From Candidatus Rifleibacteriota bacterium (GTDB lineage Bacteria > Muiribacteriota > Ozemobacteria > Ozemobacterales > Ozemobacteraceae), in contig JAFPZP010000038.1 in NCBI GenBank assembly GCA_017417215.1, positions 1 through 43,516 on the forward strand: a stretch of DNA of 43,516 nucleotides. The letters run 5' to 3'. Under the pieces are notes generated by a model. That model saw only the letters and a list, made by a program, of their open reading frames with translations. It had not been told where the DNA came from and searched no databases. Positions 2,612-39,119 of the stretch are shown here, one piece after another. A program made the position numbers and the translations under genes. The first letter of the stretch is position 1. Each line of letters begins with the position of its first letter.

Positions 2612-2649
2612 CTAATTATTTCTCCTATATTACAACATTTGGGATATTT

Positions 2650-2677
2650 ATTATACCACGCATATTTAGCTTGTGTA
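2650..2677 (-). promoter_or_regulatory. Promoter for dcd
   Basis: On the minus strand a TACACA -35-like box (2672-2677) is 16 bases from a TATAAT -10 (2650-2655) preceded by TGG (extended -10). It lies about 40 bases before the dcd start. Confidence 0.55.
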
Positions 2678-2710
2678 TATACTGAATTTATATAAATCTA
2701 TATTAAATTG

Positions 2711-3859: not shown

Positions 3860-3865
3860 TATTAA

Positions 3866-9062: not shown

Positions 9063-9095
9063 AAGCCTCAATAATTAAATATTGAGGCTTTTTTT
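9063..9095. terminator. Bidirectional terminator between convergent genes
   Basis: AAGCCTCAATA (9063-9073) pairs with TATTGAGGCTT (9080-9090) around a 6-base loop. A-run before and T-run after let it end both the plus-strand zinc-ribbon transcript and the minus-strand GTPase operon. Confidence 0.92.
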
Positions 9096-12641: not shown

Positions 12642-15600
12642 TTATGGAAGACCTATTAAGGCTGGTAGGTCAGAGTTGCTTAACTGCCATATTTGACCGC
12701 TCCAAACTTCAGAATCGCTCCAGTTGGCGGCTGCACAAAGTGCTGAATTTATTGCTGAGATAGAATTGAAAAAGTAGTTTTTCTTTTTGTCAGAACCTTG
12801 ATTGTAGTTGCCAACCGTTTGTTCGGCAGAATTACAGGCGAAACCATTTATAGATGTTGAATCGGTAATGAAGGAGTTGGTTATTATGGCGGTTCCATCA
12901 GTGTAACCACAGATTCCTCCATAATTTGTTTCTCCAAGATTATTGACACTGACGTTTCCTATAGAAATACATCTGTCTACTTTCCCTGAAACATTATTGC
13001 TACCGACAATTCCACCAGCATAACTATAAGCGGTAACGTTTCCTTCATTAAAACAGTTTTCTATGGAACCATTGTTGTAGCCGGTAATGCCGCCGACATG
13101 ACTATTGGGGCTTGATACTGTTCCACTGTTTTTACATATAAAGATTTTGGAGATGTCTTTGGTCCAACCTGTAATACCACCAGCTATGTCGTTTGAACTA
13201 TTAACATTTGCATTATTTCTGCATTTGCTTAGAGTAGTCGAGTAAATGTTTCCGCATATACCACCAGCATAGCTTGAACCATAGATGTTTACACCTTCAT
13301 TACAGCAATTTGTAATTGTGCTATGGTAAGAGTAGCCGATTATGCTTCCGCAGGAATCTTCGCCAATTACATTCCCATCAGCAATGTAAAGATTTTTTAT
13401 TGTAGCATCGGCGATTTGCCCAAATAAGCCCATTGAATCCTTGGTTGGTCTATTTATCGACAAACCTGTGATTCTGTGATTGTTACCGTCAAAACCGCCA
13501 GTAAAGCTTTCTTTGTTATCGCCAATAGGTAGCCAGCCTTTGCTTTCTGTATTGTTTTCAGAAATATATGTTGAGGTTGCTATATCTATATCTCTTTCAA
13601 GCTTGTAGTGTGAAGTCATTCTTTTGCGTATGTTATCAAGCTGAGCAGCTGTAAATACCAAGTAAGGATTGTTTTCTGAACCATTACCGTTATCTGTTGT
13701 TGTAAAGGTAAAAGCATCAAAAGGAGTTATAGCAATTCCTTCTTTGTCTTTAACTCCTGAATTCATTATAAGTTTGTAAGTGGTTTTTGCACTTAGCATA
13801 TTTGAGCAGGTAATTGTTAGCTTGGTATTTGTATTATCCCATTTTTTTACTATGGAATAAAATTCTGAATTATTGCTTGTATAGAGTTTTATAGCATTTT
13901 CTGCTACTTCCTTATCTAACAATTCTTTCCCGAAATCAACATAGAATGTAGGTGTGACTATAAAAAGATTATCTACTTTGTCGGGTTCGTTGATTGTAAG
14001 AGTTGCTGTAGTGCCAGAACCTTCGGCGGTACTGAATTCAAAATTAGCTGCTGAGGTTGTTTGCAAAGTCGTATCGTTCTTTATTCCTGCATTAACGATT
14101 AATTGGTAGGTTGTATTGTAAAGAAGAGAAGATGAAGGAATTATAGTAAGTTCTTTTGCACTTTCATCGTAATCGAAATCATTAATCAGTATTTGAGAGC
14201 TTCCGCTTCTTAAAGTGATGAAATTCTTGTAAATATCAGACCAGTCTACTTCTTCTGAAAACCTGATAATGATTGGGGTTGAGGTCGCAACATTTGTGGC
14301 TTCAGCAGGTGAAACCAGAGAAACAGAAATCTTGTTTAAAGTAGAAAAAGCAAACTGCTCAAATTCGTCGATGAAGATTCCTTCATAATCTTTAACTTTT
14401 TCTTCCATAACTACTCTGTAGCTTTCGTTTTGATCTAATGGAACTGAAAAAGTTAATTCAAGCTTTTTATAATCGTCCTTCCAGGTTTTTGAAGTAGTTG
14501 TAATCAGGGTTCCGCCTTTATAGACTTTAATTGCGTCTTTGGCTTTTGTAAGTTCAGAACTCATGACCATTTTCTTGAAATCAATGATTAATACTGGTTT
14601 TAAAATTGATTCAGAGCCCACAAGAGAACCGTCTGCAAAGCCGATAGTTGCTTGCTGATGAGTGCTGTCTGCTGTTGAAAATGTAAAAGTCAGGGTTGCA
14701 ACTTCCTGGCGGGTTGTATCGTTAACTAAATCATATAATATTTTTAAAGTATAGGTTGCATTATATGTAAGAGAATTACTTGGTGTCAGAGTTAATGTCT
14801 TGTTGGCTTCTGAATAAACATATGAATCAATAGGTAAATCTTGCATTCCAAGCCTGAATTGTATTTTGCTGGCGTCGTCAGCTTCTTCCCAACTTATTGA
14901 ATTGGAAAACTTGACTACAAGCTGAGTGTTCACATCGGCACCTGTTTTAGAAGGTGTTATTAGTGATGGCGTAATGTTAGGCATGGTTCTGAAAACTACA
15001 TCTGCAAAGGGCTCTATTATTCTGCCTTGAGCGTCTTTTATAGAGTTAACCATTTTTAAAGTATGTTCTGCATCAGGAACCAAAGTAGCTGTGTAATATA
15101 CTTCGAGCTTAGATAGGTCATTTGTCCATCTGCGTTTGTAACCAGTCATAAGGGTATCGCCACGATAGAATTCCAAGGCTTTTTCTGCAAGACTTATGTT
15201 CATAACTGGCTGCTTGAAATCAATGCAGATTGTCGGAATCAGAATTGCGAGGCCGTCTATGTTGCTTTCGTCTGCTAAGACAGCTGTTGCTGTGAAATGA
15301 GCTTCGTCTCTGGTTTCAAAACTAAAGGAAGTTGAAGCTATTTTTTGTTTTGTGAGCTTATTTGAAAGCCCTTCTAGAAGCTTGATGGTGTAAGAGGCAT
15401 TATAGTAAAGGGTTCCTGGATTAATGGTCAGAGTCTTTGTATCTGAGGCGTAGGTAAATTCTTCTAATGATGAAGTTACGTCTGTATTTCCTCTGTAAAA
15501 AGCAAATAATCTTTTGTCTGAAGCAGAGCCAGACCAGGCGATATCTTCAGAAAAAGTAAAAACTATGGGAGTATTTGCGTCTGCGCCAGTTGCAGTCGGG

Positions 15601-18624: not shown

Positions 18625-19032
18625 ATGAATAATCAAGATAATCAGCATAATATTGGACCGACAGACCAAATAAACTGGCTTTCAGCAATGATGTCTGTTG
18701 ATAAAGACATTCATGAAAAAGAATTCAGAGTTATAATGGAATATGGTTTAAAGCTAGGCTTGAATGAGGAAAAAATAAAACGAATTGTAAGCACTTCTTT
18801 GAAAGGGCAAGATATTCTTATGCGTTATTTAAAGGTAAGCAAATTGCCTAGAAATGACGATCTTATGCGCGCTTTAATAAGAGTTATCATTGCAGACGGG
18901 AAAATAGCAAATGAAGAGTTGGAAATGCTACGTCTTGTTGCTAGTAAAATGGCTTTCACTTCAGAAGAATTAAAAGCTATTTTCGAAGAAGAAAAAAGAG
19001 ATTATATTAGAAGAAATTCTATGGGAAGATAG
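18625..19032 (+). CDS. TerB-like helical protein
   Basis: 135 residues, all helical by pattern. The C-terminal half (LIRVIIADGKIANEELEMLRLVASKM) matches the TerB-like pattern: an Ala-Asp-Gly turn between helices, then an acidic helix. The N-terminal half repeats a similar arrangement (INWLSAMMSVDKDIHEKEFRVIMEYGLKLGL), as TerB folds do. TerB proteins are associated with Ter stress-response systems and with the inner face of the membrane; this copy lies about 11 kb before the TerD cluster but on the same strand. It is divergent from the giant lipoprotein and followed by its own terminator, so it is a separate transcript. Confidence 0.68.
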   Translation: MNNQDNQHNIGPTDQINWLSAMMSVDKDIHEKEFRVIMEYGLKLGLNEEKIKRIVSTSLKGQDILMRYLKVSKLPRNDDLMRALIRVIIADGKIANEELEMLRLVASKMAFTSEELKAIFEEEKRDYIRRNSMGR

Positions 19033-21455: not shown

Positions 21456-22070
21456 ATGTTAAAAATAGCACGTAAAACTGAATGCTGTAAGGTTTTGGGA
21501 CCAGGCAACCGTGCAGTCATTTGGTTTTACGGTTGTTCTCGAAATTGCGATGGTTGTATCGCAAAATCAATGAATTTATCTGAAGATTATGCGGAGTCTA
21601 CTCCTGAAGACCTCTATAAATGGGTATTGTCCTGCGATAAAATAGAAGGAATTTCTATTTCTGGCGGTGAGCCATTAGAGCAGAACTCAAATGAACTTAT
21701 AGATTTCTTGAGAAAAGTAAAATCAGATTCAAGAGGGCTGTCTATTGTTATTTTTTCAGGCTTTACCTATAAAGAAATAGAAAAAGGCCCTTGTAAAGAG
21801 GTCTTAGAAATAGCTGACGTTTTGGTTGATGGTACATATAAAAAAGAACTGAATGACGATACAGGCTTGAGAGGCTCATCAAATCAAAATATAATCTTTT
21901 TATCCGATAGATATCTTCCCATAAAGGAATATTTTTATAAAAAAGATTGTCGTAATATTGAGTTAGGTATTACACTTGATAATACAATTACTATAAATGG
22001 AATTCCTAAAAAAGGATTTGTTGAAAAGCTGAAATCTGATTTAGCTAATGAAGGTTATGAATTAATTTAA
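21456..22070 (+). CDS. Radical SAM activating-enzyme-like protein
   Basis: 204 residues. The CxxxCxxC cluster motif is at Cys27, Cys31 and Cys34 (GCSRNCDGC), and GGEP at 70-73 is the SAM-binding strand. Overall layout resembles NrdG-type glycyl-radical activases (WFYGCSRNCDGC; SISGGEPLEQ; ADVLVDGTY), which use a [4Fe-4S] cluster and SAM to make a 5'-deoxyadenosyl radical. No anaerobic ribonucleotide reductase or other glycyl-radical enzyme is adjacent, so it may modify a protein or small molecule linked to the neighbouring genes. The ATG follows the glgX stop codon with no gap; ribosome binding must use the end of glgX. Confidence 0.85.
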   Translation: MLKIARKTECCKVLGPGNRAVIWFYGCSRNCDGCIAKSMNLSEDYAESTPEDLYKWVLSCDKIEGISISGGEPLEQNSNELIDFLRKVKSDSRGLSIVIFSGFTYKEIEKGPCKEVLEIADVLVDGTYKKELNDDTGLRGSSNQNIIFLSDRYLPIKEYFYKKDCRNIELGITLDNTITINGIPKKGFVEKLKSDLANEGYELI

Positions 22071-23707: not shown

Positions 23708-25324
23708 ATGAAGGCTGAAGAACTATTTGATGCTGCCACACAGGCTTATATAGACGGTAACGATGAAGAGGCGGTCAGATTGTATGTTGAAGCTGCTGAT
23801 TTAGATTTCCTTGATGCTGTTAAAGTCTTGGCAGAAGCATACGAAAACGGGGATAAATTAAGTATTGATAAAGACGATAGAAAAGCTTTAAGTTATTATA
23901 AACAAGCTTTTCTACTTGATGATTCAGAATCATTTAATAAAATAATTAATTATTCTAATAAAATAGAACGTGATTCTGTAATAAAAGATTTATTAATTAA
24001 TAATTTATCCGTTTTTTCTTCTGATAAATACTGTGAACAGCTTGGAATGTGCATAGAAGAAAATGAAGATTTTTCTTCAGACACTCCTATGATGGCGAAA
24101 GTTATTTGTGCTCTGCCTGTGCTGGCAAAATTCATTAATTTTAATATTTTTTCTTCCGAACAGCTTAAAGATATTTTTATTTCTAATCCTGATTTGGCTA
24201 AAACCTTTAATGATTGGGAAAAAATCAGTTTAAATCATATTGAAGAATTATCAGAAAAAGTCCCTTCAGTCTTGATGGGATACCCTGATGCAAGCCTCTT
24301 TACTACTAAAATATGGGTTAATTTAATAATTTTTAATAAAGAATTATTAAAAAAATGCAATTTAGAAATAATTAATTCTTTTAATTCTAAAGATTGGTTT
24401 GAAATAATTAAATGCCATCCTGAATTGGCTCCTGACTGTGTTTGGAAAAATCTCGAAAAAGAAGAAATTAAAGAATTAATTCTTATTAAACCAGAAATAT
24501 TTATTTTTTGTAATGACTGGTCAAAACTTGATACTTCTCTACGTCAGCTTATTAAATCAAGAAATCCCAAAATTACAGATTCTTTTATTAGTAAGTTTGA
24601 TAGGATTTTTGAACTGAAAAAATTCGAAAATATTCCTTTACAAGATTTTGGTATTATAGAAATGGTCTTATGTATGCCCGGAGTTTTTTATATGGGTTCT
24701 TCTTCCGATGAAAAGGGCCATTGTGTTGATGAAATAATGCATAAAGTTACTATTTCTAAGCCCTTTTTTATTGGTAAATATCCTGTTACTCAGTCTTTAT
24801 ATCAAAGCATTATGGGTGAAAACCCTTCTATGGATATAGATGACAACAAGCCTGTAGAAAAGGTTCCTTACAAAAGTGCCACCGATTTTTGCCGAAAACT
24901 GACACTTAAATTGGCTGGAATTATTCCTTCAGATTATATGTTTAATCTTCCGACAGAAGCTCAATGGGAATATGCTTGCAAAGCTGGTTGCCAAAAATTT
25001 GATACAGGGAACGACAGTTCTCTTCCCGATTACGGCACTGTTATTCAAACCCACTCGGTTGTTGAAGGTAAGCCTAATAAATGGCAGATTTACGATATGC
25101 TAGGAAATGTTTCTGAATGGTGTCGTTCATGCTATTACAAATATCCCAGTATTGATGAAAAAGACCCGACTGGTCCAATGATTGGACAATATAGAGTTTG
25201 CAGAGGTGGAAGTTTTAAAATACCTAGAGATATTTTAAGACCCTCAAAGAGATATGCTGTTAATCCTTCTCTTTCTGCAAGCCCAGAAATTGGTTTTAGA
25301 ATAATTCTGGAATCTAAGAGGTAA
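23708..25324 (+). CDS. Helical-repeat protein with a non-catalytic FGE-like domain
   Basis: 538 residues. Residues 1-85 are Sel1/TPR-like (AAQAYIDGNDEEAVRLY type units). Residues about 140-305 hold degenerate ~36-residue helical repeats with recurring W..L, PEL/PEI and C.W. The C-terminal domain (about 316-538) is of the formylglycine-generating-enzyme/SUMF1 type: EMVLCMPGVFYMGS, NPVEKVPYKSATDFC-like, LPTEAQWEYACKAG, LGNVSEWC and RGGSFK...IGFRI. Between RGGSFK and the end there is no cysteine, so the copper-binding Cys pair of true FGE is absent; a binding role is more likely than sulfatase activation. It ends 3 bases before the AAA+ gene. Confidence 0.85.
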   Translation: MKAEELFDAATQAYIDGNDEEAVRLYVEAADLDFLDAVKVLAEAYENGDKLSIDKDDRKALSYYKQAFLLDDSESFNKIINYSNKIERDSVIKDLLINNLSVFSSDKYCEQLGMCIEENEDFSSDTPMMAKVICALPVLAKFINFNIFSSEQLKDIFISNPDLAKTFNDWEKISLNHIEELSEKVPSVLMGYPDASLFTTKIWVNLIIFNKELLKKCNLEIINSFNSKDWFEIIKCHPELAPDCVWKNLEKEEIKELILIKPEIFIFCNDWSKLDTSLRQLIKSRNPKITDSFISKFDRIFELKKFENIPLQDFGIIEMVLCMPGVFYMGSSSDEKGHCVDEIMHKVTISKPFFIGKYPVTQSLYQSIMGENPSMDIDDNKPVEKVPYKSATDFCRKLTLKLAGIIPSDYMFNLPTEAQWEYACKAGCQKFDTGNDSSLPDYGTVIQTHSVVEGKPNKWQIYDMLGNVSEWCRSCYYKYPSIDEKDPTGPMIGQYRVCRGGSFKIPRDILRPSKRYAVNPSLSASPEIGFRIILESKR

Positions 25325-25327
25325 TAT

Positions 25328-28300
25328 ATGAGAAGCTTTATAGATAGAGAACGGCTTTTTGATAGATTAAAAGTAGATGGTCAAAAACGTCAAATAATGA
25401 TTTGTGGCGGTGAAGATGATGATTTTATGGTGGATTACGTCACAGGAACCGTTGATATTTGTAAAGCTATAACACTTTATCTGCTTGAAAAAAAATATGA
25501 CCAGATTCTAATTCTCGATAGATCTCGCTTTACAACGAAACTCGATTTCCCTAATAGCGAGATGGAACAGAATTATAAGAATATAAATCAGCCTAGAGTC
25601 AGCAGAGACCCTAAAGCTGGCAATAATGTAACTTTTATTGATGATGACGACGATGATGAAGAAGAAAATAATGCACAGCAATCTACTGCCAACGAACAGA
25701 ATAATCAGAATGCACAGCAGTCAGATAATGCTACTAATCAGAGAGTTCAGCAAGCTACAGAACAGGCTGCCAGCGCTGGGGTAGGGGAAGAAGAAAACCT
25801 ACTGGGTTCAATAAATAGAGCTATTGAAGAGCACCCGGACCAGACTTTTGCAATAGTGTATATGTACCCTGATACAATGCTTTTGGATGCTAATTATGAA
25901 TCTGAACATATTAATAAAGTTCGTATCATATCTGGGTTAGCTAGACTTAGAAACTGCGACAGCTATTTAATTCTGGATTCAAAAAGAGAAAGCAAGTTTA
26001 TTGAATTCCTCGATTGGGTTTTGAATAATGATGAATACTCTCAGAGAGTTTATCTGCAAAAGCCAAAAAGAAACGTTTTTGAAGCTTTTATAAAGCGTGC
26101 AATGTGCAGAAATAATTTTTATTGTAGAGACTTAGATGTAATGTCCTCTACTATTGCTGCAGAAGGCGGTTCTCTTAGAAATTTTGAAGTCAGACTTCAG
26201 AAATTCATGAAGACCGCTACTGATTTTCCTTATCTAGACGACATTTATAAAGACAACGAAAAGGTCAGAAATCTGGATGATATCTTAAATAGCATTAATA
26301 ATCTGGTTGGTCTAAACGAAATTAAAACCTACGCCAATGAGCTTGTATTAACTAAGCAGGAAAACGACGAAAATAATTCTAACAGCAGAATATCTTTACC
26401 AAATATGATTTTCACTGGTGCTGCAGGTACTGGCAAGACAACTGTTGCAAAGCTTTTGGGGCAACTCTTTTTAAACCTTGGCCTTAGAACTAGAAATGCT
26501 TTTGTAGAAGTTTCCATCAGCGATTTTGCTGTTGGAAGAACCCCATCGGCTGACACGATGAATATGAAAATTAATGAGGCAGATGGAGGAATTCTGTGCA
26601 TTGATGAGCCTTATCTGCTTTGTGACAGCGAAGATGGCAAACAGGCTTTGCAGGTTTTAATCAAGCGGTTAGAGGAACGAGGAGATAATTTTTCTGTTAT
26701 TCTGACTGGCTACTCTGATAAATTCGCTCAGTTATTCAAGATTAATCAGGGTTTTAAAACAAGATTCGCCAAAACTATTAATTTTAGAGATTATACAGAA
26801 GAACAACTTTTTGATATTGTTGTAGCCCAGACAGACAAAGAAAGCCTTGTTCTCTCTTCTGAAGCCGAAACAAAAATTATCGAATATATTGCTTCTTACT
26901 CTAGACGTGGCGGAATGGCAAACGGACATGGCGCAAATCAGCTATTCAGCAAAATATTAGCTAATTTTGAAAAACGAAAATCATTGGAAAGAACTGTTAT
27001 CGGTGACGATATTCCTGAAGCTATGCGGTTCCACGAAAAAGAGGCTAAGGAATTTATCGAAACCTTAGACCAGAAATTTGTGGGTTTGCCGAAAGTTAAA
27101 GATTTTTTGAGAACAATGTATAAAAAACAGTTGGCAGCCAATAAAAGAAAGGCCAAAGACAAGCCAGCTCCAAATAATTGTATGTTTTTAGGTAATCCAG
27201 GAACAGGCAAGACCACTGTCGCAAGATTAACTGGTCAGTTGTTCTACTATCTTGGATTGGTCAGCGAAAAGAACAAGCTTATAGAAACAGACCCAATAAT
27301 GGATTTCACTTCCAGCTATGTTGGTGAATACGCCCAAAAGGTTAGAGATAAATTTGATGAGGCTCTTGGAGGAGTTCTCTTTATCGATGAAGCTTATCAA
27401 CTTGCAAATGACGAACAGGGTAGAAAAGTCGTAGACCAGATGGTTAAACTTATGACTGAGCCTAAATATCTGAATCTCATAGTTATTATGGCTGGTTACC
27501 CAGATGAAATGCGTAAGCTTTATGATGCAAATCCTGGTTTGAAGCGTCGTTGCCCCAACGAAGTATTCTTCGATGATTTTAATAATGAAGAATTAAAAGA
27601 AATCTTTATGCAGCAAATGAAAGATGACGGGCTTTCTCAAGATGGTGACCCCAGAAGCTTTGATTCTCATCTGAAATCTGAATTGGCTAGAATGGCTGCT
27701 CAGCGTCATTTTGGCAATGCTGGTGCTGTCATAAATTACTATAAAGACTTTGTATTAGGGAATCAGGCAGAAAGACTGAATGATGATCCTGAAGCTGATA
27801 ACACAAAGATTACTGTATCAGATTTAACTGGCTCTCAAAAAGACAATAAGAAGCCAATTAGCGAAATATTGGCCGACTTAGATAAAAACTTTATTGGTTT
27901 GAAATCCTTAAAAGAAGCCATTAAGAAAATGTCTAACCGAATTCGTCTAGAACAGGTTCGTTCAACAAAACTTGGTGTACCGCCTTCTTCTGGTGGTTTT
28001 AACATTAGATTTGTTGGAAACCCAGGTACAGGTAAAACAACGATAGCTCGTTATATAGCTGATATTTTCTGCTCTTTGGGCATTATTACAAGACCCAAAA
28101 TCAGAGAATATAGAGGAGTTGACTTAAAAGGTTCTTATGTAGGGCAAACCAAAGATAAGGTTAATAAACTCTTTGAAGATAGTCAGGATTCAGTTGTTTT
28201 AATTGATGAAATCTATAGTCTATATCAAAAGAACGCAAACAATCAGGATTCTTTTGCATTAGAAGCAATTGATGCACTGGTAGGGGCTATGACAGACCCC

Positions 28301-28711
28301 AAAAATGCTACGACAATTATAATTATAGCTGGTTACAAAGATAGAATGGACGAGTTTCTTGAAGGTAATGCTGGCTTGGCAAGCCGTTTCCCATTAGAAA
28401 TCGAATTCCCTGATTATAGCGACTCTGAATGTGTTGAAATAGTCAGAAGACAGCTTGCTAAGAAAAAATTTGTAATTCCAGACCAGAAAAAGTTTAACGA
28501 TATACTATCTAAGTATTTTAGCGTTGTTAGAAAACAGATGGGAAGCAACTTCGGAAATGCCAGAACGGCTGGAAGTGTTGTTTCCTATATAGAAGATTCT
28601 GTAAGCAGCAGGCTTTCCGAAATAAATGAGGAAGATTTGACTGAAGAAGTGCTTACTACCATAGATGTAGATATGGATTTGCCCTCAGCCAGCAGTAATG
28701 GAGGCTTTTGA
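25328..28711 (+). CDS. Triple-module CbxX/CfqX-type AAA+ ATPase
   Basis: 1127 residues with three complete AAA+ modules of the CbxX/CfqX type. Walker A motifs: GAAGTGKT (364-371), GNPGTGKT (from 622) and GNPGTGKT (from 897); Walker B: ILCIDEP (422-428), VLFIDEAYQL and VVLIDEIYSL. The N-terminal 330 residues form a separate domain split by an acidic run (FIDDDDDDEEE, 103-113) and a Gln/Asn-rich linker. CbxX ATPases remodel protein complexes, for example as Rubisco activases, and also occur in type VII secretion and in conflict systems. The first module differs most (IDEP in place of IDEA). AAGAGG overlaps the previous stop codon as a ribosome-binding site. Likely the motor of the cluster. Confidence 0.92.
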   Translation: MRSFIDRERLFDRLKVDGQKRQIMICGGEDDDFMVDYVTGTVDICKAITLYLLEKKYDQILILDRSRFTTKLDFPNSEMEQNYKNINQPRVSRDPKAGNNVTFIDDDDDDEEENNAQQSTANEQNNQNAQQSDNATNQRVQQATEQAASAGVGEEENLLGSINRAIEEHPDQTFAIVYMYPDTMLLDANYESEHINKVRIISGLARLRNCDSYLILDSKRESKFIEFLDWVLNNDEYSQRVYLQKPKRNVFEAFIKRAMCRNNFYCRDLDVMSSTIAAEGGSLRNFEVRLQKFMKTATDFPYLDDIYKDNEKVRNLDDILNSINNLVGLNEIKTYANELVLTKQENDENNSNSRISLPNMIFTGAAGTGKTTVAKLLGQLFLNLGLRTRNAFVEVSISDFAVGRTPSADTMNMKINEADGGILCIDEPYLLCDSEDGKQALQVLIKRLEERGDNFSVILTGYSDKFAQLFKINQGFKTRFAKTINFRDYTEEQLFDIVVAQTDKESLVLSSEAETKIIEYIASYSRRGGMANGHGANQLFSKILANFEKRKSLERTVIGDDIPEAMRFHEKEAKEFIETLDQKFVGLPKVKDFLRTMYKKQLAANKRKAKDKPAPNNCMFLGNPGTGKTTVARLTGQLFYYLGLVSEKNKLIETDPIMDFTSSYVGEYAQKVRDKFDEALGGVLFIDEAYQLANDEQGRKVVDQMVKLMTEPKYLNLIVIMAGYPDEMRKLYDANPGLKRRCPNEVFFDDFNNEELKEIFMQQMKDDGLSQDGDPRSFDSHLKSELARMAAQRHFGNAGAVINYYKDFVLGNQAERLNDDPEADNTKITVSDLTGSQKDNKKPISEILADLDKNFIGLKSLKEAIKKMSNRIRLEQVRSTKLGVPPSSGGFNIRFVGNPGTGKTTIARYIADIFCSLGIITRPKIREYRGVDLKGSYVGQTKDKVNKLFEDSQDSVVLIDEIYSLYQKNANNQDSFALEAIDALVGAMTDPKNATTIIIIAGYKDRMDEFLEGNAGLASRFPLEIEFPDYSDSECVEIVRRQLAKKKFVIPDQKKFNDILSKYFSVVRKQMGSNFGNARTAGSVVSYIEDSVSSRLSEINEEDLTEEVLTTIDVDMDLPSASSNGGF

Positions 28712-29998: not shown

Positions 29999-30087
29999 TT
30001 ATTTTTTCTAACTCATAAAAGTACGTTATTATATAGAAACTGCTTTTTAAAGATAAAAAACATTTGAACTTTAGAAAAGGATTAGTT

Positions 30088-30732
30088 ATGACTATTAGAT
30101 TAAAAAAAGGCGAAAAAATAAATCTTTCAAAAGAAAGCCGTGGCTTAACAAAGGTAGTTGTCGGGTTAGGCTGGGATGAAAATAGTAACAGTAGCAATAA
30201 AGATGAAGGATTCCTTATGAGTTTAGGGAAGGCTCTTTTCGGCTCTACCGCATTGTCTGAAGAAGATTTTGACTGTGATGCTGTTGCTATTATGTTAGAT
30301 AACGGTCATTTTACAAGTAAAGGCGATTTAGTTTTCTATAATAATTTAGTTCATCAAAGCGGAAGCGTTAAACATATGGGCGATAATCTAACCGGTAATG
30401 CTTCTGGTGAAAAAGGTGATGCTGAACAGATTTTAATAGATTTAAAGCATGTTCCTTCAAATTATGACAGAATTATTCTGGCAGTAGGTATTTATCAGGC
30501 TTTGAGAAGAAAGCAGCATTTTGGAATGATAAATAATACATATATCAGAATAGTTGATGACAGTACAAAACAAGAAATCTGCCGTTATAATTTAACAGAT
30601 AATTATCCCAATATGACTCATGTTGTTTTTGGAGACCTTCATAAAGATAGAAACGGTGAATGGCAGTTCCGTGCCATTGGTGAAGGAACCCAGGATGAAA
30701 ACGTTGTAGCATTGGCTTATAGATATAAATAA
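30088..30732 (+). CDS. TerD-family protein
   Basis: 214 residues. TerD fold signatures: MTIRLKKGEKINLSKE at the start, VVVGLGWDE, FDCDAVAIML, GDNLTGN and HFGMINNTYIRIVDD. TerD domains bind Ca2+ through the conserved acidic sites and are the core of Ter stress systems. Between GLGWDE and FDCDA there is an extra ~20-residue stretch (GFLMSLGKALFG...), absent from the simpler TerD at 34339. I use ATG 30088 with AAGGA upstream, because the family always begins with this MTIxLKKG strand; an earlier Met would add eight unrelated residues. The 89 bases upstream are AT-rich and may hold a promoter, but no clean -35/-10 pair is seen. Confidence 0.92.
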   Translation: MTIRLKKGEKINLSKESRGLTKVVVGLGWDENSNSSNKDEGFLMSLGKALFGSTALSEEDFDCDAVAIMLDNGHFTSKGDLVFYNNLVHQSGSVKHMGDNLTGNASGEKGDAEQILIDLKHVPSNYDRIILAVGIYQALRRKQHFGMINNTYIRIVDDSTKQEICRYNLTDNYPNMTHVVFGDLHKDRNGEWQFRAIGEGTQDENVVALAYRYK

Positions 30733-30776
30733 AACAGACAGGGGGTAAAAAGCCCCTTGTTTGACTTGACTTTTTT
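30732..30776 (+). terminator. Weak hairpin between terD and the YceG-like gene
   Basis: AAACA-GAC-AGGGG (30732-30744) pairs with CCCCT-TGTTT (30753-30762), leaving a 3-base bulge and 8-base loop; TTTTTT follows eight bases later. This may be a leaky terminator or attenuator that lowers expression of the downstream genes relative to terD. Confidence 0.4.
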
Positions 30777-30826: not shown

Positions 30827-33109
30827 ATGATTGAACGTGGGAAAATAGCAGAATTAAATGACTTCTTTTTGCCTCTTTCAAAACGCAGGCAAAAGGTAAC
30901 TTATGTCTATCGTATTACTGCTACAGATGGCAAGGTTAATGATTTTATTGCTAAGTACATTTCTTCTGCCAGAAGTAATGGTTTGCTTCTTGATGGTGGA
31001 ATCAAGAATCCCGATACTTCCAATGTTCAATATTGTCTGAATGTTTTGGGCAGAGATTTCAAGCTTGCGCCCGCTTTTTTCCAGAGTCAAATTAAAACTC
31101 TGCTCAGATTAGACCATAACAAGTCTAAGCTGATTGGTGACCAGCTGTATGACTATTTCTTTGAACAGTCTAAAACTGGGAAGCAGCCTCAGAACCTTCT
31201 CGTTAACCTATATCTTAAGTTTATGTGCTGGTTTTATTGCAAATTTACAATGGTTGTCCCAAAACTTGGGCAAGATGCTGCCCCAAAAATTCTGGTATGG
31301 GATAAAACAAGCAAACACGAACTTATTTTTCTTGATATAATAGCCAAGCTTGGGGCTGATATCCTTTTTGTATTCCCTAAGGGCGATGCTTCTTATCTAC
31401 CGCTAGATAAAGAATCTGTTTTCTCTGACCTCTACACAACTCAAGGTTTATCGCCTTTTAAACCAGATTTAACTTTGAGAAGCGTTATCGAAAATATTAC
31501 TTTCGGTGGTGCTATCGATGTTGCTCTAAAGTCTAATGACAAATCCGTTCTAAATACCTGGGTAGATGATAAGTTTTTTACTTATAATTCTGCATTGACA
31601 GATTTTGCTTTGAGAAAACCTCCAGAAAAGGGTTTTGCTAACATTTTCTTTTTACAATATGGTGTAGAAGATAAATATTCATATAGTTCCAACCTTTCTG
31701 ACTTTTATAAAAAACTGGTAAGTAAGCAGCGCAAGATGCTGATAGTCAATAACGAAATCCAGGGGGCAACTCCTGATGAAGTCTTCAGCATTGCACGAGG
31801 AAACTATAATAACGTTCAGCAGTTAGTTGCCGCTCTTTCTAAAAATATCACTTTCCCAAAGAGAAAAGATTTGGAAGAAATGATGAAGAAAGCTTTTGCA
31901 GAAGTTATATATGAAGATGCCAAACCATCTTTGAACAATATGCAGAAGCTTAACAATATTGCTGTTAATATTATCTGCTGGATGAAGCGCATTCTGCCTG
32001 ACTTATTAGGCAGTTTAAAAATGCCTGAATGTGCAACCTTTATTTATTTTACTAATAAAAAGCCTAAAATTGCAGAAAAGATATTCTTCTCTCTGCTTGC
32101 TAAGCTGCCTGTCGACGTAATCTGCTTTTTCCCAGATGCTAAAGAAGATTATGATATCAGCCCCAAAGCTAAAAAAGTTCGATATGACGATATGCTTCCT
32201 TTGAGCTCTTTCCCTGCTGAAAATGGAATTATCCGCGAAATTACTTTTGCTGGTCAGGCTGAACAGGAAATAAGCCAGGTTCTGCATGTAGACGGCTCTT
32301 TTGTTACTCAGCAATATCAAAAAGCTAGAATAGTAACTCTTGATACCAGCTCTTTTGAAGTTCAATCTCTTTGGGGGCAGGAACTTAGATTCAGACAAGG
32401 CTTCTCTAATACTGATGCCGAAGTTTTTATTCCAACTATTTTCGCTAAAATGAATGGGGTAGAAGGCGGAAAAGAAAAACTGAACGAGTATTGGATAAAA
32501 ATGAAAGAGCTTTTTACTCCTGAAACTACCGTTGTTTCGAGTTATCCATGGGTTAAGAACAATATAGGAAAACTAATGTCTGGAAACGCAACCAGATATA
32601 TGGATATTCGTGGAAAGCTTCTGCTTAAAAATATCAAGAACAGTTCTGATTATAAATACGGGTTTATCGATTTGGATAAACAGAACTATCTTTTAGATAA
32701 AATCCAGGCTTTTCTTGATGCAAGAAGTCTTAGCGGTATGGGTAAAAATGGTAGAGAATATGCTGTTATAGGTATTCTATTAGACCTTCCCCAGGAAATA
32801 CTTCTTAAACTTCAGGAATTTGATTTCACAAAGACGAATCCTAAATATATTTTTATAATAACCAACCGTTATTGTTTTTCTTTTGAGGAAACAGTTGTTG
32901 CTAATTTCTTGCATTTTTTAGGCTTTGATGTTTTAATATACACACCAACAGGTTTTGAATGTTTCGGTCCTTCACTTGTAAAAAGAGAGTATAAGACCTT
33001 TAAAATGGGTCCATATATCTTTGATTGTGAAGTGCCTGATTTCTCTACTCTTGAAAGACCTTCTATTACAAGACTTGTAGAATCTATATTCAGAACAAAA
33101 CTGTGGTAA
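30827..33109 (+). CDS. yceG: YceG-like Ter-operon protein
   Basis: 760 residues. It lies directly before TelA, the same order as yceG-yceH in Bacillus Ter operons, and its sequence has the YceG look: a tandem duplication of an alpha/beta unit. In copy one KILVWDKTSKHELIFLDIIA leads to GADILFVFPKGDASY; in copy two ATFIYFTNKKPKIAEKIFFS leads to VDVICFFPDAKEDY. YceG was proposed to be part of a biosynthetic module making a nucleoside-like metabolite in Ter systems; its activity is unproven. The protein is longer than the Bacillus one as I remember it. No strong ribosome-binding site precedes the ATG. Confidence in the family is moderate. Confidence 0.72.
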   Translation: MIERGKIAELNDFFLPLSKRRQKVTYVYRITATDGKVNDFIAKYISSARSNGLLLDGGIKNPDTSNVQYCLNVLGRDFKLAPAFFQSQIKTLLRLDHNKSKLIGDQLYDYFFEQSKTGKQPQNLLVNLYLKFMCWFYCKFTMVVPKLGQDAAPKILVWDKTSKHELIFLDIIAKLGADILFVFPKGDASYLPLDKESVFSDLYTTQGLSPFKPDLTLRSVIENITFGGAIDVALKSNDKSVLNTWVDDKFFTYNSALTDFALRKPPEKGFANIFFLQYGVEDKYSYSSNLSDFYKKLVSKQRKMLIVNNEIQGATPDEVFSIARGNYNNVQQLVAALSKNITFPKRKDLEEMMKKAFAEVIYEDAKPSLNNMQKLNNIAVNIICWMKRILPDLLGSLKMPECATFIYFTNKKPKIAEKIFFSLLAKLPVDVICFFPDAKEDYDISPKAKKVRYDDMLPLSSFPAENGIIREITFAGQAEQEISQVLHVDGSFVTQQYQKARIVTLDTSSFEVQSLWGQELRFRQGFSNTDAEVFIPTIFAKMNGVEGGKEKLNEYWIKMKELFTPETTVVSSYPWVKNNIGKLMSGNATRYMDIRGKLLLKNIKNSSDYKYGFIDLDKQNYLLDKIQAFLDARSLSGMGKNGREYAVIGILLDLPQEILLKLQEFDFTKTNPKYIFIITNRYCFSFEETVVANFLHFLGFDVLIYTPTGFECFGPSLVKREYKTFKMGPYIFDCEVPDFSTLERPSITRLVESIFRTKLW

Positions 33110-33131: not shown

Positions 33132-34316
33132 ATGGGTATCAATCTAGGTAATACCTCACCTTCACAGCAAACTGCTTCTGCTGTAAATGTTCAGACACAA
33201 GCTGCTTCAACAACTACTGATTTGGTTGAAGTTCCAACTTTTAATATGGAAGCTGAACGTCAGGCTACCTATGATATGCTTAAACAGTCTCCTGAAATTC
33301 AGGCTTTAACAAGTCAGATTGAAATAAACAATATTGAAACTATTACTGGTTTCGGTGCAGAAGCCGCAGAAGAAATATCTAGAGCCTCTGATACTGTTTT
33401 AAATGGTGTCAGTCTTCCTCAGCTTAATGAAAGCAGTGATTTGCTTGTATCGCTGAATAAGGTTATGGAACAGTTCCAACCTGATGAATTGGCTCCAAAA
33501 GAAGAATCTTTTTGGGATAAAATCGTTAATTTTTTCAAAGGTGGTCTAAAAAAGCAATTAGACAATATTCTCAGAAAATATGAAACCTTTGGCGGCGAAG
33601 TAGATAAGATTTATACACAGCTTAAAAAATATGAAACTGATATAAAACTAGCTAATCGGCAGCAGGAAGAACTCTATCAGGCTAATGTAACCTATTATCG
33701 TGAATTGGTCAAATATATCGTTGCTGGTGAAGCTGCTTCTGAAGAATTGACTAAAGTTATTCAAGATACCCAGGCTGAATACGAACGTACTGGTAATAAT
33801 GAACTAATGTTGAAGCTCAATGACTACGGTAAAGCCAAAGAAATGCTTGACCAGAGAGTTGATGATTTAAGAAAGGCAGAAATGGTTGCTATTCAGTCTT
33901 TGCCTAGCATCAAGAATCAGCAGTATAACAATATGAATCTGGTTCGCAAAATCAATTCTGCTTTTATTATTACTTTACCTATTTTCAAGACTAATCTCGC
34001 CCAGGCTATTCAGATTAAACGTCAGAAACTTCAGGCAGATGCCATTGCCGCTCTTGATGAAAAGACCAATCAGCTTTTGACTCAGAATGCTAAGAATATT
34101 GCAACTCAGAGCAAGCAGATTGCCAAGATGGCAAGCGGTAGTTCAATTAAAATTGAAACTCTTGAAAAGAGCTGGCGTGAAATCGTTAATGGAATTCAAG
34201 AAACTCAGAGAATTCAAGAAGCAGCAAAAAGACAGCGCGAAGATGATAAGAAACGTCTTGAAGCTATTAAGGAAGACTTTAAGAAAGTTTTTGGTACACC
34301 CAATGTGAACCGTTAA
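33132..34316 (+). CDS. telA: TelA-family toxic-anion resistance protein
   Basis: 394 residues, the normal length. Mostly helical and cytoplasmic: QSPEIQALTSQIEINN, ITGFGAEAAEEISRASD near the start, WDKIVNFFKGGLKKQ in the middle and NLVRKINSAFIITLPIFKTN, AIAALDEKTNQLLTQN toward the end are all typical of TelA/YceH. TelA proteins accompany TerD and YceG in tellurite and general stress operons and take part in resistance to toxic anions and cell-wall agents. AGGAG lies 7 bases before the ATG; 22 bases separate it from the YceG-like gene. A second frame open across 34087-34308 is not a gene. Confidence 0.92.
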   Translation: MGINLGNTSPSQQTASAVNVQTQAASTTTDLVEVPTFNMEAERQATYDMLKQSPEIQALTSQIEINNIETITGFGAEAAEEISRASDTVLNGVSLPQLNESSDLLVSLNKVMEQFQPDELAPKEESFWDKIVNFFKGGLKKQLDNILRKYETFGGEVDKIYTQLKKYETDIKLANRQQEELYQANVTYYRELVKYIVAGEAASEELTKVIQDTQAEYERTGNNELMLKLNDYGKAKEMLDQRVDDLRKAEMVAIQSLPSIKNQQYNNMNLVRKINSAFIITLPIFKTNLAQAIQIKRQKLQADAIAALDEKTNQLLTQNAKNIATQSKQIAKMASGSSIKIETLEKSWREIVNGIQETQRIQEAAKRQREDDKKRLEAIKEDFKKVFGTPNVNR

Positions 34317-34338: not shown

Positions 34339-34935
34339 ATGACTATTAATCTAAAAAAAGGTGGTAAGATTAATCTTACAAAGGAAAAACCAGGTTTAAA
34401 GAATTTGTTAGTTGGTCTTGGTTGGGATACTAACCAATTTGATACTGGTGCAGACTTTGACTTGGATGCTTCAGCTTTCGTTTGCGGTGCCAATGGCAGA
34501 TGTCGCAGTGAAGCTGACTTCGTTTTCTACGGTAATCTTGAACACGAAAGCGGTGCTGTAATTCACAGTGGTGACAATAAAGTCGGTGGCGATGGTTCCG
34601 AAGATAGCGATGAAGAAGAAATCCAGTTGGATCTTTCTAAGGTTCCAAGCTATGTTGAAAAAATTGCTTTTACAGTAACTATTTATGATGCTGTTAAACG
34701 CAGACAAAACTTTGGTCAGGTTTCTAACGCCTACATCAGAGTTGTCGACAGAGATTCTGGCGAAGAACTTGTTAGATACGATCTCGGCGAAGATTTCTCT
34801 ATCGAAACAGCTATTGTAGCCGCTGAAATATACAAAAATGGTGGAGAATGGCGTTTTAATGCTATAGGAAGCGGATTCCAAGGCGGTTTGGCAGCTCTTT
34901 GTAGACATTACGGCTTAGACGCTGATTCTGAATAA
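34339..34935 (+). CDS. terD: TerD family protein, closest to the standard form
   Basis: 198 residues, a standard TerD length. It shows the conserved strands [45 protein letters not shown] and the C-terminal [14 protein letters not shown]. The DxDxS and GDN motifs are the Ca2+ sites. Unlike the other TerD proteins here it lacks the insertion between GLGWD and DLDAS. A strong GGAGGG lies 9 bases before the ATG, suggesting high expression. A strong terminator follows (34950-34980). Confidence 0.95.
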
Positions 34936-34949
34936 TTTGATTGAAAAAA

Positions 34950-34980
34950 ACTGTTTTGCTTAATAGCAAAACAGTTTTTT
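34950..34980 (+). terminator. Intrinsic terminator between terD and the TerA-like gene
   Basis: ACTGTTTTGCT (34950-34960) pairs perfectly with AGCAAAACAGT (34965-34975) around a 4-base loop, followed by TTTTT. Only about 20 bases separate it from the next ATG (35003), leaving no room for a promoter beyond it. Confidence 0.88.
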
Positions 34981-35002
34981 GTTTAATTTTGGTTACAAAT
35001 AT

Positions 35003-35614
35003 ATGACTATTTATTTAAAAAAAAGCGAAAAGATTAATCTTAAAAAGAAAGAAAAAGAACCATTAGGTGAAATTCTTATTAATTTGAATTGGAATTCTAA
35101 GCCTAAGAATCAGGGGTTCTTAAATGGTTTATTTTCAGGTGGTTCTAAGGGGATAGATCTAGATTTAGCTTGTTTATATGAACTTAAAAATGGAGAAAAA
35201 AATGCTGTTCAGGCATTGGGCAATAGTTTCGGAAGCCTTTCTGGTTCTCCTTTTATAGCATTAGACGGCGACGACAGAACAGGTGAAAGTTCTGGCGGTG
35301 AAAACCTTAGAATCAACGGAAATATGATTTCTAAGATTAAACGAATATTGGTTTTCACTTTTATTTATGAAGGTGTTGCTAATTGGAAAGATGCAGAAGC
35401 TGTAGTTACTATTAAATACCCAGGAGCTGAAGATATAGTTGTCCATCTTGATGAATACAACACAGAATGCCGTAATTGTGCTTTGGTTCTCTTAGAAAAC
35501 CAAAACAATGAAACTTTCAGCGTTCAGCGTGTAGTTAAGTTCTTCTCTGGTCATGAAACTATGGATAGAGCCTTTAATTGGGGTATTCGCTGGATTCCAG
35601 GAACTAAGGATTAA
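35003..35614 (+). CDS. TerA-like member of the TerD superfamily
   Basis: 203 residues. It begins MTIYLKKSEKINLKKKE like its TerD neighbours but then has the TerA-type sequence: LINLNWN, IDLDLACLYEL, VQALGNSFGS, IALDGDDRTG, ENLRING, RILVFTFIYEG, MDRAFNWGIRWIPG. The GDDRTG and ENLRING segments replace the TerD GDN loop and suggest a different ligand mode. An insertion GFLNGLFSGGSKG stands where other TerD copies here also have one. Start chosen at ATG 35003 because the family starts with this strand; the ribosome-binding site is weak (GGTTA). Three bases separate it from the next terD-like gene. The strong terminator just upstream makes its expression interesting. Confidence 0.85.
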   Translation: MTIYLKKSEKINLKKKEKEPLGEILINLNWNSKPKNQGFLNGLFSGGSKGIDLDLACLYELKNGEKNAVQALGNSFGSLSGSPFIALDGDDRTGESSGGENLRINGNMISKIKRILVFTFIYEGVANWKDAEAVVTIKYPGAEDIVVHLDEYNTECRNCALVLLENQNNETFSVQRVVKFFSGHETMDRAFNWGIRWIPGTKD

Positions 35615-35617
35615 AAA

Positions 35618-36217
35618 ATGACAATTTATTTGAAAAAAGGACAGAAAATAAACCTTTCCAAAGAAAAGAAGGGACTGTCAAAAATATTTGTAGCTCTTGG
35701 CTGGGATGAAGTTGGAAAAAATCTTAGTTTCTTTCAGCGTTTATTTTCTAACCCGGAAGATATCGACTGCGATGCTTCGGCACTTCTTCTTTCTGATGGA
35801 AAAGTTTCTGCTGGATATGAGGATATAGTCTATTTTGGCAATCTAAAGCATAAAACTGGTGCTGTTTATCATTCTGGTGACAATCTTACCGGCGCTGGTG
35901 AAGGTGATAGCGAAGTTATAAATGTTGATTTAAGCAGTCTTCCGAAAAAATATGACGGTGTTGTTTTTGTTGTTAATATTTATAAGGCTAGAGAACGTGA
36001 TCAGCACTTCGGAATGCTAACTAATGCCTATATTAGAATTGTTGATGTTTCAACTAAAAATGAAATCTGTCGATATATTTTATCGGATAATTATGATAGA
36101 AAAACGGCTATGATAGTCGCTAAACTAACGAAGGAAAACGATGAATGGCATTTCGATGCCATTGGTGAAGCCACAAACGATAATAGAATAAGCGAAATGG
36201 CAGATAGATTTAGATAA
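35618..36217 (+). CDS. TerD-family protein
   Basis: 199 residues. Motifs: MTIYLKKGQKINLSKEKKG, IFVALGWDE, DIDCDASALLL, YHSGDNLTGAG, DQHFGMLTNAYIRIVD and FDAIGEAT. It resembles the 30088-30732 copy: both have CDA in place of LDA and an insertion between the GLGWDE strand and the acidic site (here LSFFQRLFSNPED). Probably a Ca2+-binding partner of the other TerD proteins. It begins 3 bases after the TerA-like gene and ends 27 bases before the ATPase gene, so these three are probably one transcript. Confidence 0.92.
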   Translation: MTIYLKKGQKINLSKEKKGLSKIFVALGWDEVGKNLSFFQRLFSNPEDIDCDASALLLSDGKVSAGYEDIVYFGNLKHKTGAVYHSGDNLTGAGEGDSEVINVDLSSLPKKYDGVVFVVNIYKARERDQHFGMLTNAYIRIVDVSTKNEICRYILSDNYDRKTAMIVAKLTKENDEWHFDAIGEATNDNRISEMADRFR

Positions 36218-36244: not shown

Positions 36245-38968
36245 GTGCAATTTACTGGTTTAACCGACAAAGAGGTTTTGGAATCGCGAGAAAAAAATGG
36301 CGCGAATGTTATTCCTGATTCAGAACCAACAACATTTTGGGCTGAATTTTGTGAAACTTTTAACGATCCTATGATTCGTATCCTGCTCGTAATAGCAGGT
36401 ATTATGACTGTTCTTAGCTTTATTAAGATAGATGGTGAACCCTTAGCAGAATGGTTTGAACCTGTAGGTACTTTTGTTGCTGTTCTTATAGTTGCAACTG
36501 TTCAGGCAAAAACTGGTGTTGCTAGTGATACAAAGTTTAGAGAATTAAAAGAATCAACTGAAAAAGATAAATGTAAGGTATATAGAAACGGTCTAATTAC
36601 TGTAGTTAACTTTGATGACGTAGTTGTAGGCGATAAAGTATATCTGCAGGCTGGTGACAAGGTTCCCGCTGACGGTGTTCTTATTGATGGTTCAATGAAA
36701 GTTGATAACTCTGCTCTCAACGGTGAAGCAGAAGAATGCAAAAAGACTGCTGCTGAAAAAGCTATGACTATTCCTGATGAAATTACTGGTGACGCCTTTG
36801 TTGATGCTCACTCTCTTTTCAGAGGCGTAGTATTATTTGACGGTGCTGGTGTCTTAGACGTTCAGAAAGTCGGCCTCAAGACCATGATGGGTAAAATGGC
36901 TGAAGATATGGTTGAACCACCTGATTCTCCGTTAAAAGTTAAACTTGGCAAACTTGCTGACCAGATTTCTACTTTCGGTTATTGGGGCGCTGCAGTAATC
37001 GTTATTCTCTATATGATTTACAACATTTATATGGGGAATAATCCACTAGTTCTTAAAGCAGCTGCTTCTGGCAATACTCTTGAACATATTTACTGGTTTA
37101 ACGGTTGGTTGACTCTTGGCTGGGCTGGAATTTTCAAACAGATTGTTACTGCCGTTTCTTTGGCAATCGTTATTATCGTTTGTGCTGTTCCAGAAGGTCT
37201 GCCCTTGATGATTTCTCTTGTTCTTATGCAGAATACAGGCAAAATGCTTGATCATAACGTTCTTGTTAGAAAAGATCAGGGTATTGAAACTGCTGGTTCT
37301 TTGAATATTCTATTCAGTGATAAAACTGGTACTATCACCAAAGGTAAACTTGAAGTCGTTGACTTTATCGTTGGTTCTGGCAAGTCTATGAGCTTGGAAG
37401 ACTATCGAAAGTGCAGCAAGCTTAAAGGTTTAATTGACCTTATTATTGGTAGAAATACCCAGTCTATGTTCGATAAAGACGACCATGTTATTGGTGGTAA
37501 CATGACCGATCAGGCTCTTCTTAAATTTGTCGGAAGAGATGTTTTCGAAAATCTTGGAAACATAGAAAAATATAAAGTTACTGAATCTCAGCCTTTCAAC
37601 TCTGCTAATAAATTCAGCCAGGCATTCTTAGCTGGTGAAGGCAAGGTATTGTATAAAGGTGCTCCAGAAAGACTGCTTGCTTGTGCTAAGAAATACTTAG
37701 ACGAAAATGGCGAAGAAAAAGACATCGACCTTGCTGCTATTAATAAGAAGATTGATGAATTAGCCGCAAAATCTATGCGTGTTCTTTCCTTTGGTTATTC
37801 TGTTAAACCAATGGAAGAAAACAAGATTAACGATGACGTTATTCTCGTTGGCTTAGTTGCAATCAGAGACGACGTTAGAAAAGAAGCTGCTGAAGCAATT
37901 CAGGAAGTTATGAAAGCCGGTATTCAGGTTGTTATGATTACTGGTGACAGAAGAGAAACTGCTCAGGCTATCGCAAAAGATGCTGGTTTGCTTGTTAATG
38001 ATACAGACAAAGTTCTTACTTCCGAAGACTTGAACAAGATGTCTGATGATGAAGTTAAGGCAATTATTCCTAATATCAGAGTTATTGCCCGTGCTCTTCC
38101 AACTGATAAATCAAGAATGGTAAGACTTTGCCAGGAAATGAATCTTGTTGTTGGTATGACTGGTGACGGTGTTAACGACTCTCCTGCTCTCAAGCGTGCA
38201 GACGTTGGTTTTGCTATGGGTAGCGGAACTGAAGCTGCTAAAGAAGCTGGCGAAGTTGTTATTCTTGATGATAACTTCAAGTCCATTAAAGACGCTATTC
38301 TTTACGGTAGAACAATTTATAACAACATTCTCAAGTTCTGTAAATTCCAGCTTGTAATTAACGTCGGCGCTGTTATCGTCAGTGCTATAGCTCCATTCTT
38401 CGGTATTGAAGAACCTTTGAAAGTAACACACCTTCTCTTCGTTAACCTGGTTATGGACAGCCTTGGTGCAATCATGCTTGGTAACGAACCTGCTCTTGAA
38501 AAATACATGCTTGAAAAACCAAGAAAACGTGATGAAAACATCGTTAGCAATGCAATGATGACTCAGATTATCATTATGGGTCTCTGGCTGACTATTGTTA
38601 GTTTCGTTTTCTTAAAGTGCAAATGGTTCTTGGATTTCTTTGGAAGCGAAGAAAAACTTCTCACTGGTTACTTCGTTCTCTTCATCTGGGCTGCTCTCTT
38701 CAACGGTTTCAATGTTAGAGATGAAAAGTTTGGTATTTTCAGCAATCTGAGCTTGAATCCTGGTTTCATAGTTGTTTTCATATCAATAGTTCTCATTCAG
38801 GCTTTGATTGTTAATGTCGGCTTGTTTGGCGATTCATTGAGCTGGGTAGGAAAGATGTTCAGCTGCGTTCCATTCGACCTCAAGGGTTGGGGCATTGTAA
38901 TCCTTCTTGCTGCTACAATGATTCCTGTAGATATGATTAGAAAATGCTTCGTTAAAGATAAAAAATAA
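36245..38968 (+). CDS. P-type Ca2+-transporting ATPase (PMCA-like)
   Basis: 907 residues, a full P2-type ATPase. DKTGT at Asp359 is the phosphorylation site; PEGLP at 316-320 lies in the fourth membrane helix and fits Ca2+ transport; GDGVNDSPALK starts at 640; TGDRRETA and the final membrane helices follow. The N-terminal cytoplasmic part (FTGLTDKEVLESREKNGAN) is the normal start for this class. It most resembles PMCA-type pumps that export Ca2+. The start codon is GTG, with AAAGGAG 7 bases upstream. It directly follows the TerD genes, whose products bind Ca2+, and is ended by a strong terminator; this supports a calcium-linked stress function. An Na+ or other cation role cannot be ruled out. 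Confidence 0.92.
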   Translation: MQFTGLTDKEVLESREKNGANVIPDSEPTTFWAEFCETFNDPMIRILLVIAGIMTVLSFIKIDGEPLAEWFEPVGTFVAVLIVATVQAKTGVASDTKFRELKESTEKDKCKVYRNGLITVVNFDDVVVGDKVYLQAGDKVPADGVLIDGSMKVDNSALNGEAEECKKTAAEKAMTIPDEITGDAFVDAHSLFRGVVLFDGAGVLDVQKVGLKTMMGKMAEDMVEPPDSPLKVKLGKLADQISTFGYWGAAVIVILYMIYNIYMGNNPLVLKAAASGNTLEHIYWFNGWLTLGWAGIFKQIVTAVSLAIVIIVCAVPEGLPLMISLVLMQNTGKMLDHNVLVRKDQGIETAGSLNILFSDKTGTITKGKLEVVDFIVGSGKSMSLEDYRKCSKLKGLIDLIIGRNTQSMFDKDDHVIGGNMTDQALLKFVGRDVFENLGNIEKYKVTESQPFNSANKFSQAFLAGEGKVLYKGAPERLLACAKKYLDENGEEKDIDLAAINKKIDELAAKSMRVLSFGYSVKPMEENKINDDVILVGLVAIRDDVRKEAAEAIQEVMKAGIQVVMITGDRRETAQAIAKDAGLLVNDTDKVLTSEDLNKMSDDEVKAIIPNIRVIARALPTDKSRMVRLCQEMNLVVGMTGDGVNDSPALKRADVGFAMGSGTEAAKEAGEVVILDDNFKSIKDAILYGRTIYNNILKFCKFQLVINVGAVIVSAIAPFFGIEEPLKVTHLLFVNLVMDSLGAIMLGNEPALEKYMLEKPRKRDENIVSNAMMTQIIIMGLWLTIVSFVFLKCKWFLDFFGSEEKLLTGYFVLFIWAALFNGFNVRDEKFGIFSNLSLNPGFIVVFISIVLIQALIVNVGLFGDSLSWVGKMFSCVPFDLKGWGIVILLAATMIPVDMIRKCFVKDKK

Positions 38969-38980
38969 TCTTTAAATAAA

Positions 38981-39022
38981 AAAAGCCGCGGTTCTGAATT
39001 TCTCAGACCCGCGGCTTTTTTT
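38981..39022 (+). terminator. Strong intrinsic terminator after the Ca2+-ATPase gene
   Basis: GCCGCGGTTCTGA (38985-38997) pairs with TCAGACCCGCGGC (39003-39015) with one mismatch, flanked by A- and T-runs. This GC-rich hairpin stands out and marks the end of the Ter-type cluster. Confidence 0.93.
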
Positions 39023-39119
39023 ATTATCATAAGATTAAAAAACTTGCAAGAGACAAAAAAAGAGGGCAAAATATATTCATATAGATTTGTAGAGAACTTC
39101 ACTAACAAAGGAAAGAAAA

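Follow-up and report, generated by a model that had tools for sequence, protein, structure and literature searches.

A Ter operon of Candidatus Rifleibacteriota with a PMCA-type ATPase at the place of TerC

In Bacillus subtilis the gene meeF, which encodes the membrane protein TerC, lies in the yceCDEmeeF operon, and TerC exports Mn2+ (PMC10550928). The whole cluster, yceCDEF(meeF)GHI (PMC10550928; our loci L177 and L228-L244), joins TerD paralogues, YceG and TelA (YceH) to one membrane ion transporter that directly follows the TerDs. Here we describe a cluster with the same TerD paralogues, TelA and YceG in a contig of Candidatus Rifleibacteriota bacterium (JAFPZP010000038.1, assembly GCA_017417215.1; its 43,516 analysed nucleotides are called the window). 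It lacks the TerC beside TerD that marks the Bacillus and enterobacterial form. The B. subtilis cluster has TerC (PF03741) as its transporter and runs TerD-TerC-YceG-TelA, whereas the window runs YceG-TelA-TerD and ends in a P-type ATPase, the pump of the title.

We believe this is a variant of the Ter operon in which a dedicated PMCA-type ATPase, exporting Ca2+ or possibly Mn2+, does the membrane job of TerC, and we put the probability of this reading at about 0.65. That the pump substitutes for TerC in the operon is well supported, and the analysis shows a widely conserved gene order, the exclusion of TerC from pump loci, a pump lineage apart from housekeeping pumps and calcium-ligand residues conserved in both the pump and the TerDs. 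The ion, the coupling and the function we infer. Because the pump stands at the place of TerC and the genome has no PF03741, we file the cluster as a variant Ter operon. We found no paper on a TerD operon with a Ca2+-ATPase; the Ter survey of Anantharaman et al. 2012, Daigle 2015 and Martin 2019 lay outside that search, so an earlier description is possible. From 30064 the plus strand reads TerD1, YceG, TelA, TerD2, TerD3, TerD4, pump, and all four TerDs score above the PF02342 cut-off:

30064..30732, plus strand: TerD1 (PF02342, E 2.3e-62; ATG at 30088 the likelier start)
30827..33109, plus strand: YceG_bac (PF14266), three domain copies in three stretches, E 3.4e-73
33132..34316, plus strand: TelA (PF05816), homologue of B. 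subtilis YceH, E 2e-91
34339..34935, plus strand: TerD2, canonical TerD (PF02342, E 1.8e-79; PDB match to Klebsiella TerD 2kxt/2kxv, E 4.5e-66)
34945..34980, plus strand: terminator-like hairpin in the TerD2/TerD3 gap, a 16-pair stem, then a T-rich tail
34979..35614, plus strand: TerD3, a divergent TerD-domain protein (PF02342, 29.9 bits, over cut-off; ATG at 35003 the likelier start)
35618..36217, plus strand: TerD4, TerD-domain protein directly 5' of the pump (PF02342, E 1.5e-62; side-chain ligands of the Ca1 site conserved)
36245..38968, plus strand: PMCA-type (type IIB) P-type ATPase of the NGE/DKTGTITKG lineage, 907 aa, last gene of the operon
38977..39024, plus strand: intrinsic terminator 3' of the pump (hairpin of -30.3 kcal/mol, z -9.6, T run at its end)

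The pump and the TerD proteins

The open reading frame of the pump is intact, starts with GTG and has the ribosome site AAAGGAG just 5' of it. The protein carries the P-type and Cation_ATPase Pfam domains and scores 528 bits against TIGR01517 ("calcium-translocating P-type ATPase, PMCA-type"), a narrow margin over the curated cut-off of 507. With a gap of 27 nt between the end of the last TerD and the pump start, the preliminary description of a PMCA-like Ca2+-ATPase 27 bases after that gene is confirmed. The P-type motifs DKTGT, KGAPE, TGD and GDGxND are kept, and TGES has become NGEA with the catalytic Glu retained. The pump shares with the PMCA-type (P2B) Ca2+-ATPases (TIGR01517; relatives of known structure LMCA1, 6zhf and 6zhh, and PMCA1/2) the domain set, the M4 PEGLP and the single-site ligand pattern of M5 and M6. 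Its lineage differs from them in the genetic link to TerD and in two motifs across all 31 members: NGE, followed by A, S, T or N, at the place in the actuator loop where the other P-type ATPases compared have TGES, and FSDKTGTITKG, that is DKTGTITKG instead of DKTGTLTQN. A pump on an Entomospira plasmid (L318) also has NGE with DKTGTITKG, and the two together serve as a sequence mark for recognising pumps of this lineage.

The putative calcium ligands lie in M4 VPEGLP, M5 NVGAV and M6 VNLVMD, a pattern kept through the lineage. On the mapping of these residues onto SERCA and PMCA positions that we assume, the ligands of site II are present (M4 Glu, M6 Asn/Asp) and the M5 Glu of site I is absent. 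The combination PEGLP in M4, N..A in M5 and N..MD in M6 matches what would be a PMCA-like single Ca2+ site, not the arrangement of SERCA.

Klebsiella TerD binds Ca2+ through a site (Ca1) of residues 40, 41, 42, 78, 79 and 89 (PMC8779313). All four window TerDs keep the Klebsiella residues at 40, 42, 78 and 89; position 79 is Asn, or Asp in TerD3, so these five positions have an acidic or amide side chain in every one of the four. Position 41 varies, and residue 88 of the Ca2 site is not conserved. With ligands conserved in both proteins, it is plausible that the pump controls the ion that TerD senses.

Given the strong terminator that follows it, a hairpin with a T tail, the pump gene probably closes its transcript. 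TerD3, TerD4 and the pump may form a unit with a dosage of its own, owing to the hairpin in front of TerD3. A further terminator-like hairpin lies between TerD1 and YceG (30735-30763), and the two together possibly control dosage.

TerC and the pump across Ter loci

The breadth of the link was examined with the pump alone as the query, one genome per species, and the best 80 loci were kept; in their flanks, matches were sought to hidden Markov models (HMMs) of the window genes and of TerC. One locus is that of a 97% identical congener (L065, isolate RUG334). Nearly all of the remaining 79 pumps, which show 66-72% identity, belong to Clostridia. TerD genes, mostly three, lie on the same strand within 600 nt of the pump in 75 of the 79, which rules out chance adjacency and bears out the co-occurrence of TerD and this ATPase subfamily in loci chosen by pump similarity alone. 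YceG and TelA are also there in 66 of those 75, usually in the order YceG-TelA-TerDx2-4-pump, and TerC is in none of the 79 flanks. Three of the four pumps lacking a TerD neighbour are cut by contig ends; L117 is a real exception. In L131, L132 and L138 the pump precedes the TerDs. The divergent TerD3 has orthologues in clostridial pump operons, for example L127, L113 and L139. A HAD hydrolase gene (Hydrolase_3), absent from the window, directly follows the pump in clostridial operons (L069, 12768-13529; L084, 12665-13489). In L069 a protein that fuses a YceG domain to a trypsin-like protease (2480-3892) is encoded 5' of the Ter operon and of a rhomboid gene.

So as not to select on the pump, a second set of loci was drawn from Bacillota by YceG (PF14266). 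Among 50 such loci with TerD in view, TerC adjoins TerD in 17, a P-type ATPase does so in 16, neither does in 17, and both in none (Fisher p 3e-4, uncorrected for kinship). Bacillales loci usually read TerD-TerD-TerD-TerC-YceG-TelA, and seven clostridial loci (L221-L227) read YceG-TelA-TerDx3-pump. One order holds both the TerC form (L188, and L332, which was fetched for its TerC) and the pump form. In one further family sampled by YceG the pump comes right after the TerDs in 9 of the 9 loci with that position in view, two of these nine genomes being in the pump-selected set as well. Ter operons thus appear to need one ion transporter beside TerD, mostly though not always: TerC in Bacillales, a type IIB-like pump in most Clostridia sampled.

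The preliminary description had noted no TerC among the genes it read. An HMM search for PF03741 found none in the window, in the whole assembly (69% complete) or in three congeners (78, 96 and 95% complete), whereas 9 of the 14 control genomes searched in this way do have TerC. Among 42 genomes with pump operons there is one marginal TerC-like match. In the order of genome G059, TerC occurs in 112 of 226 genomes, several of which have pump operons, so a genome-wide exclusion of TerC by the pump is too strong a claim. For eleven stand-alone TerC genes from pump genomes, the surrounding stretches of 9-15 kb contain no TerD, and in neither these neighbourhoods nor the 42 genomes did we see a TerC with its own TerD set. 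It is therefore from the operon that TerC is excluded, and not in every case from the genome. The idea of a pump "in place of TerC" stands for the operon and fails for some whole genomes; a third of the TerD loci have neither gene.

Pump ancestry and rival readings

In a tree that included pump paralogues from the same genomes, a branch with a support of 100 (SH-aLRT, the Shimodaira-Hasegawa-like approximate likelihood ratio test) separates 32 unlinked housekeeping rows from all 32 TerD-linked rows; 8 unlinked rows fall on the linked side. The ATPase does not group with unlinked housekeeping pumps, and the reading that it is itself a housekeeping pump by descent was rejected on the trees. Both observations that the preliminary description named as refuting its reading were looked for and not seen, and the reading is supported. 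The careful tree holds three TerD-linked lineages: that of the window, one of Clostridium and Alkaliphilus, and L184. The Clostridium and Alkaliphilus loci (L303, L304, L307-L309; plasmid pB6464, L319) likewise place TerD beside a type IIB-like ATPase, but their pumps are only ~34% identical, keep TGES and form a separate lineage, and the pB6464 locus differs in its AIM24, HAD, PRTase and StiP genes. Among relatives without TerD linkage, the Entomospira plasmid pump stands closest to the window's lineage, at 40.7% identity. With a long stem and long rows the deep placement is uncertain, and counts of changes cannot separate gain from loss.

No other genus that was sampled, whether in the family or in the phylum, has TerD, and the tree places the pump among those of Clostridia; for these reasons we think the genus probably acquired the cluster horizontally from Clostridia. 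A plasmid origin was considered and rejected, with no match of at least 60% identity among the matches listed (5,000 plasmid records). The pump has 38.9% GC against 34-36% around it, a base composition that is uninformative on origin. In congener G003 a 68% identical pump of the same lineage (L145; G003:C51, 13765-19999) lies behind genes of a mannose-type phosphotransferase system, and no TerD was found in that genome; the contig is possibly a contaminant, or the pump possibly re-used.

Several points weigh against a dedicated Ter pump for Ca2+. Pumps of the same clade stand without TerD nearby in G003, in L117 and, as a sister pump, on the Entomospira plasmid. The TerC/pump split partly tracks lineage, TerC being mostly from Bacillales and the pump mostly from Clostridia. 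The 17 of 50 loci with neither gene within the stretch fetched mean that a transporter beside TerD is not obligatory, and the TerD2/TerD3 hairpin puts a single uninterrupted transcript in question. A type IIB-like sequence would also be no proof of Ca2+ selectivity.

TerC exports Mn2+ (PMC10550928), so either Ca2+ or Mn2+ could be the ion that TerC and the pump have in common. The pump could be chiefly an exporter of Mn2+, or of Mn2+ and Ca2+, that replaces TerC as both remove or deliver Mn2+, the Ca2+ binding of TerD being incidental. P-type ATPases are listed with the systems for Mn efflux, and one case that has been cited is a Mn2+/Ca2+ ATPase of streptococci controlled by a Mn riboswitch (PMC13274385). 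We consider this rather unlikely: the ligand pattern of the pump is PMCA-like, and control of pump operons by a Mn riboswitch found no support, as scans of the window and of six pump loci from Clostridia showed no yybP-ykoY element. The predicted PMCA-type site, together with the ligands of the TerDs, leads us to favour Ca2+ with moderate confidence. Another rival is an ordinary pump for calcium homeostasis that shared horizontal transfer has kept behind the TerDs and that has no functional coupling to them. It would fit the close relatives without TerD and the pump's own strong ribosome site. Against this, the link to TerD is kept in many clostridial genera and in two gene orders, it arose in three pump lineages, and the same genomes have further pumps with no TerD close by, so we hold this reading to be improbable. 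Finally, TerC might be in the genome and missing only from a 69% complete assembly, in which case nothing was replaced. This is very improbable in our opinion, for the three congeners, at 78, 96 and 95% completeness, also lack TerC, and the pump occupies the operon position that TerC holds elsewhere.

Neighbouring genes and meaning of the substitution

The region upstream shares genes with a clostridial TerD-pump locus (L138), which has homologues of both the AAA protein and the radical-SAM protein of the window:

18625..19032, plus strand: TerB-domain protein at the edge of the region (PF05099, 28.7 bits, cut-off 24.4)
21456..22070, plus strand: 4Fe-4S radical-SAM (NrdG-like) protein (PF13353)
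25328..28711, plus strand: triple CbbX/SpoVK-type AAA+ protein in one chain (PF00004, 3 stretches)

The triple AAA+ protein is probably an extension of the Ter cluster; two coiled-coil proteins come after it. Also inside the Ter region, 23708-25324 encodes Sel1 repeats fused to an FGE-sulfatase (SUMF1-like) domain. Farther upstream are a lipoprotein-like surface protein of 1915 aa built of repeated segments (12642-18389) and two adjoining GTPase-like membrane proteins with P-loops and C-terminal hydrophobic segments, possibly a pair (9095-12530).

On our reading, the pump would move Ca2+, and perhaps Mn2+, out of the cytosol, using a single ion site in each cycle. A rise in cytosolic Ca2+ under stress would load the TerD proteins; these might then work at the membrane together with TelA, YceG and the AAA protein. 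The co-expressed pump would set or reset the ion level, a task that TerC may have in other lineages for the ion it handles. A bolder idea is that pumps of the NGE lineage are dedicated Ter components, that Ca2+ export is a conserved membrane function which TerC serves elsewhere, and that what the TerD stress systems have in common is the ion handled, not tellurite; we offer this tentatively and would not bet on it. The natural swap of TerC for type IIB pumps is seen in three pump lineages. It points to the export of an ion as what TerC and pump share, and gut Clostridia that grow in culture make it possible to decide between Ca2+ and Mn2+.
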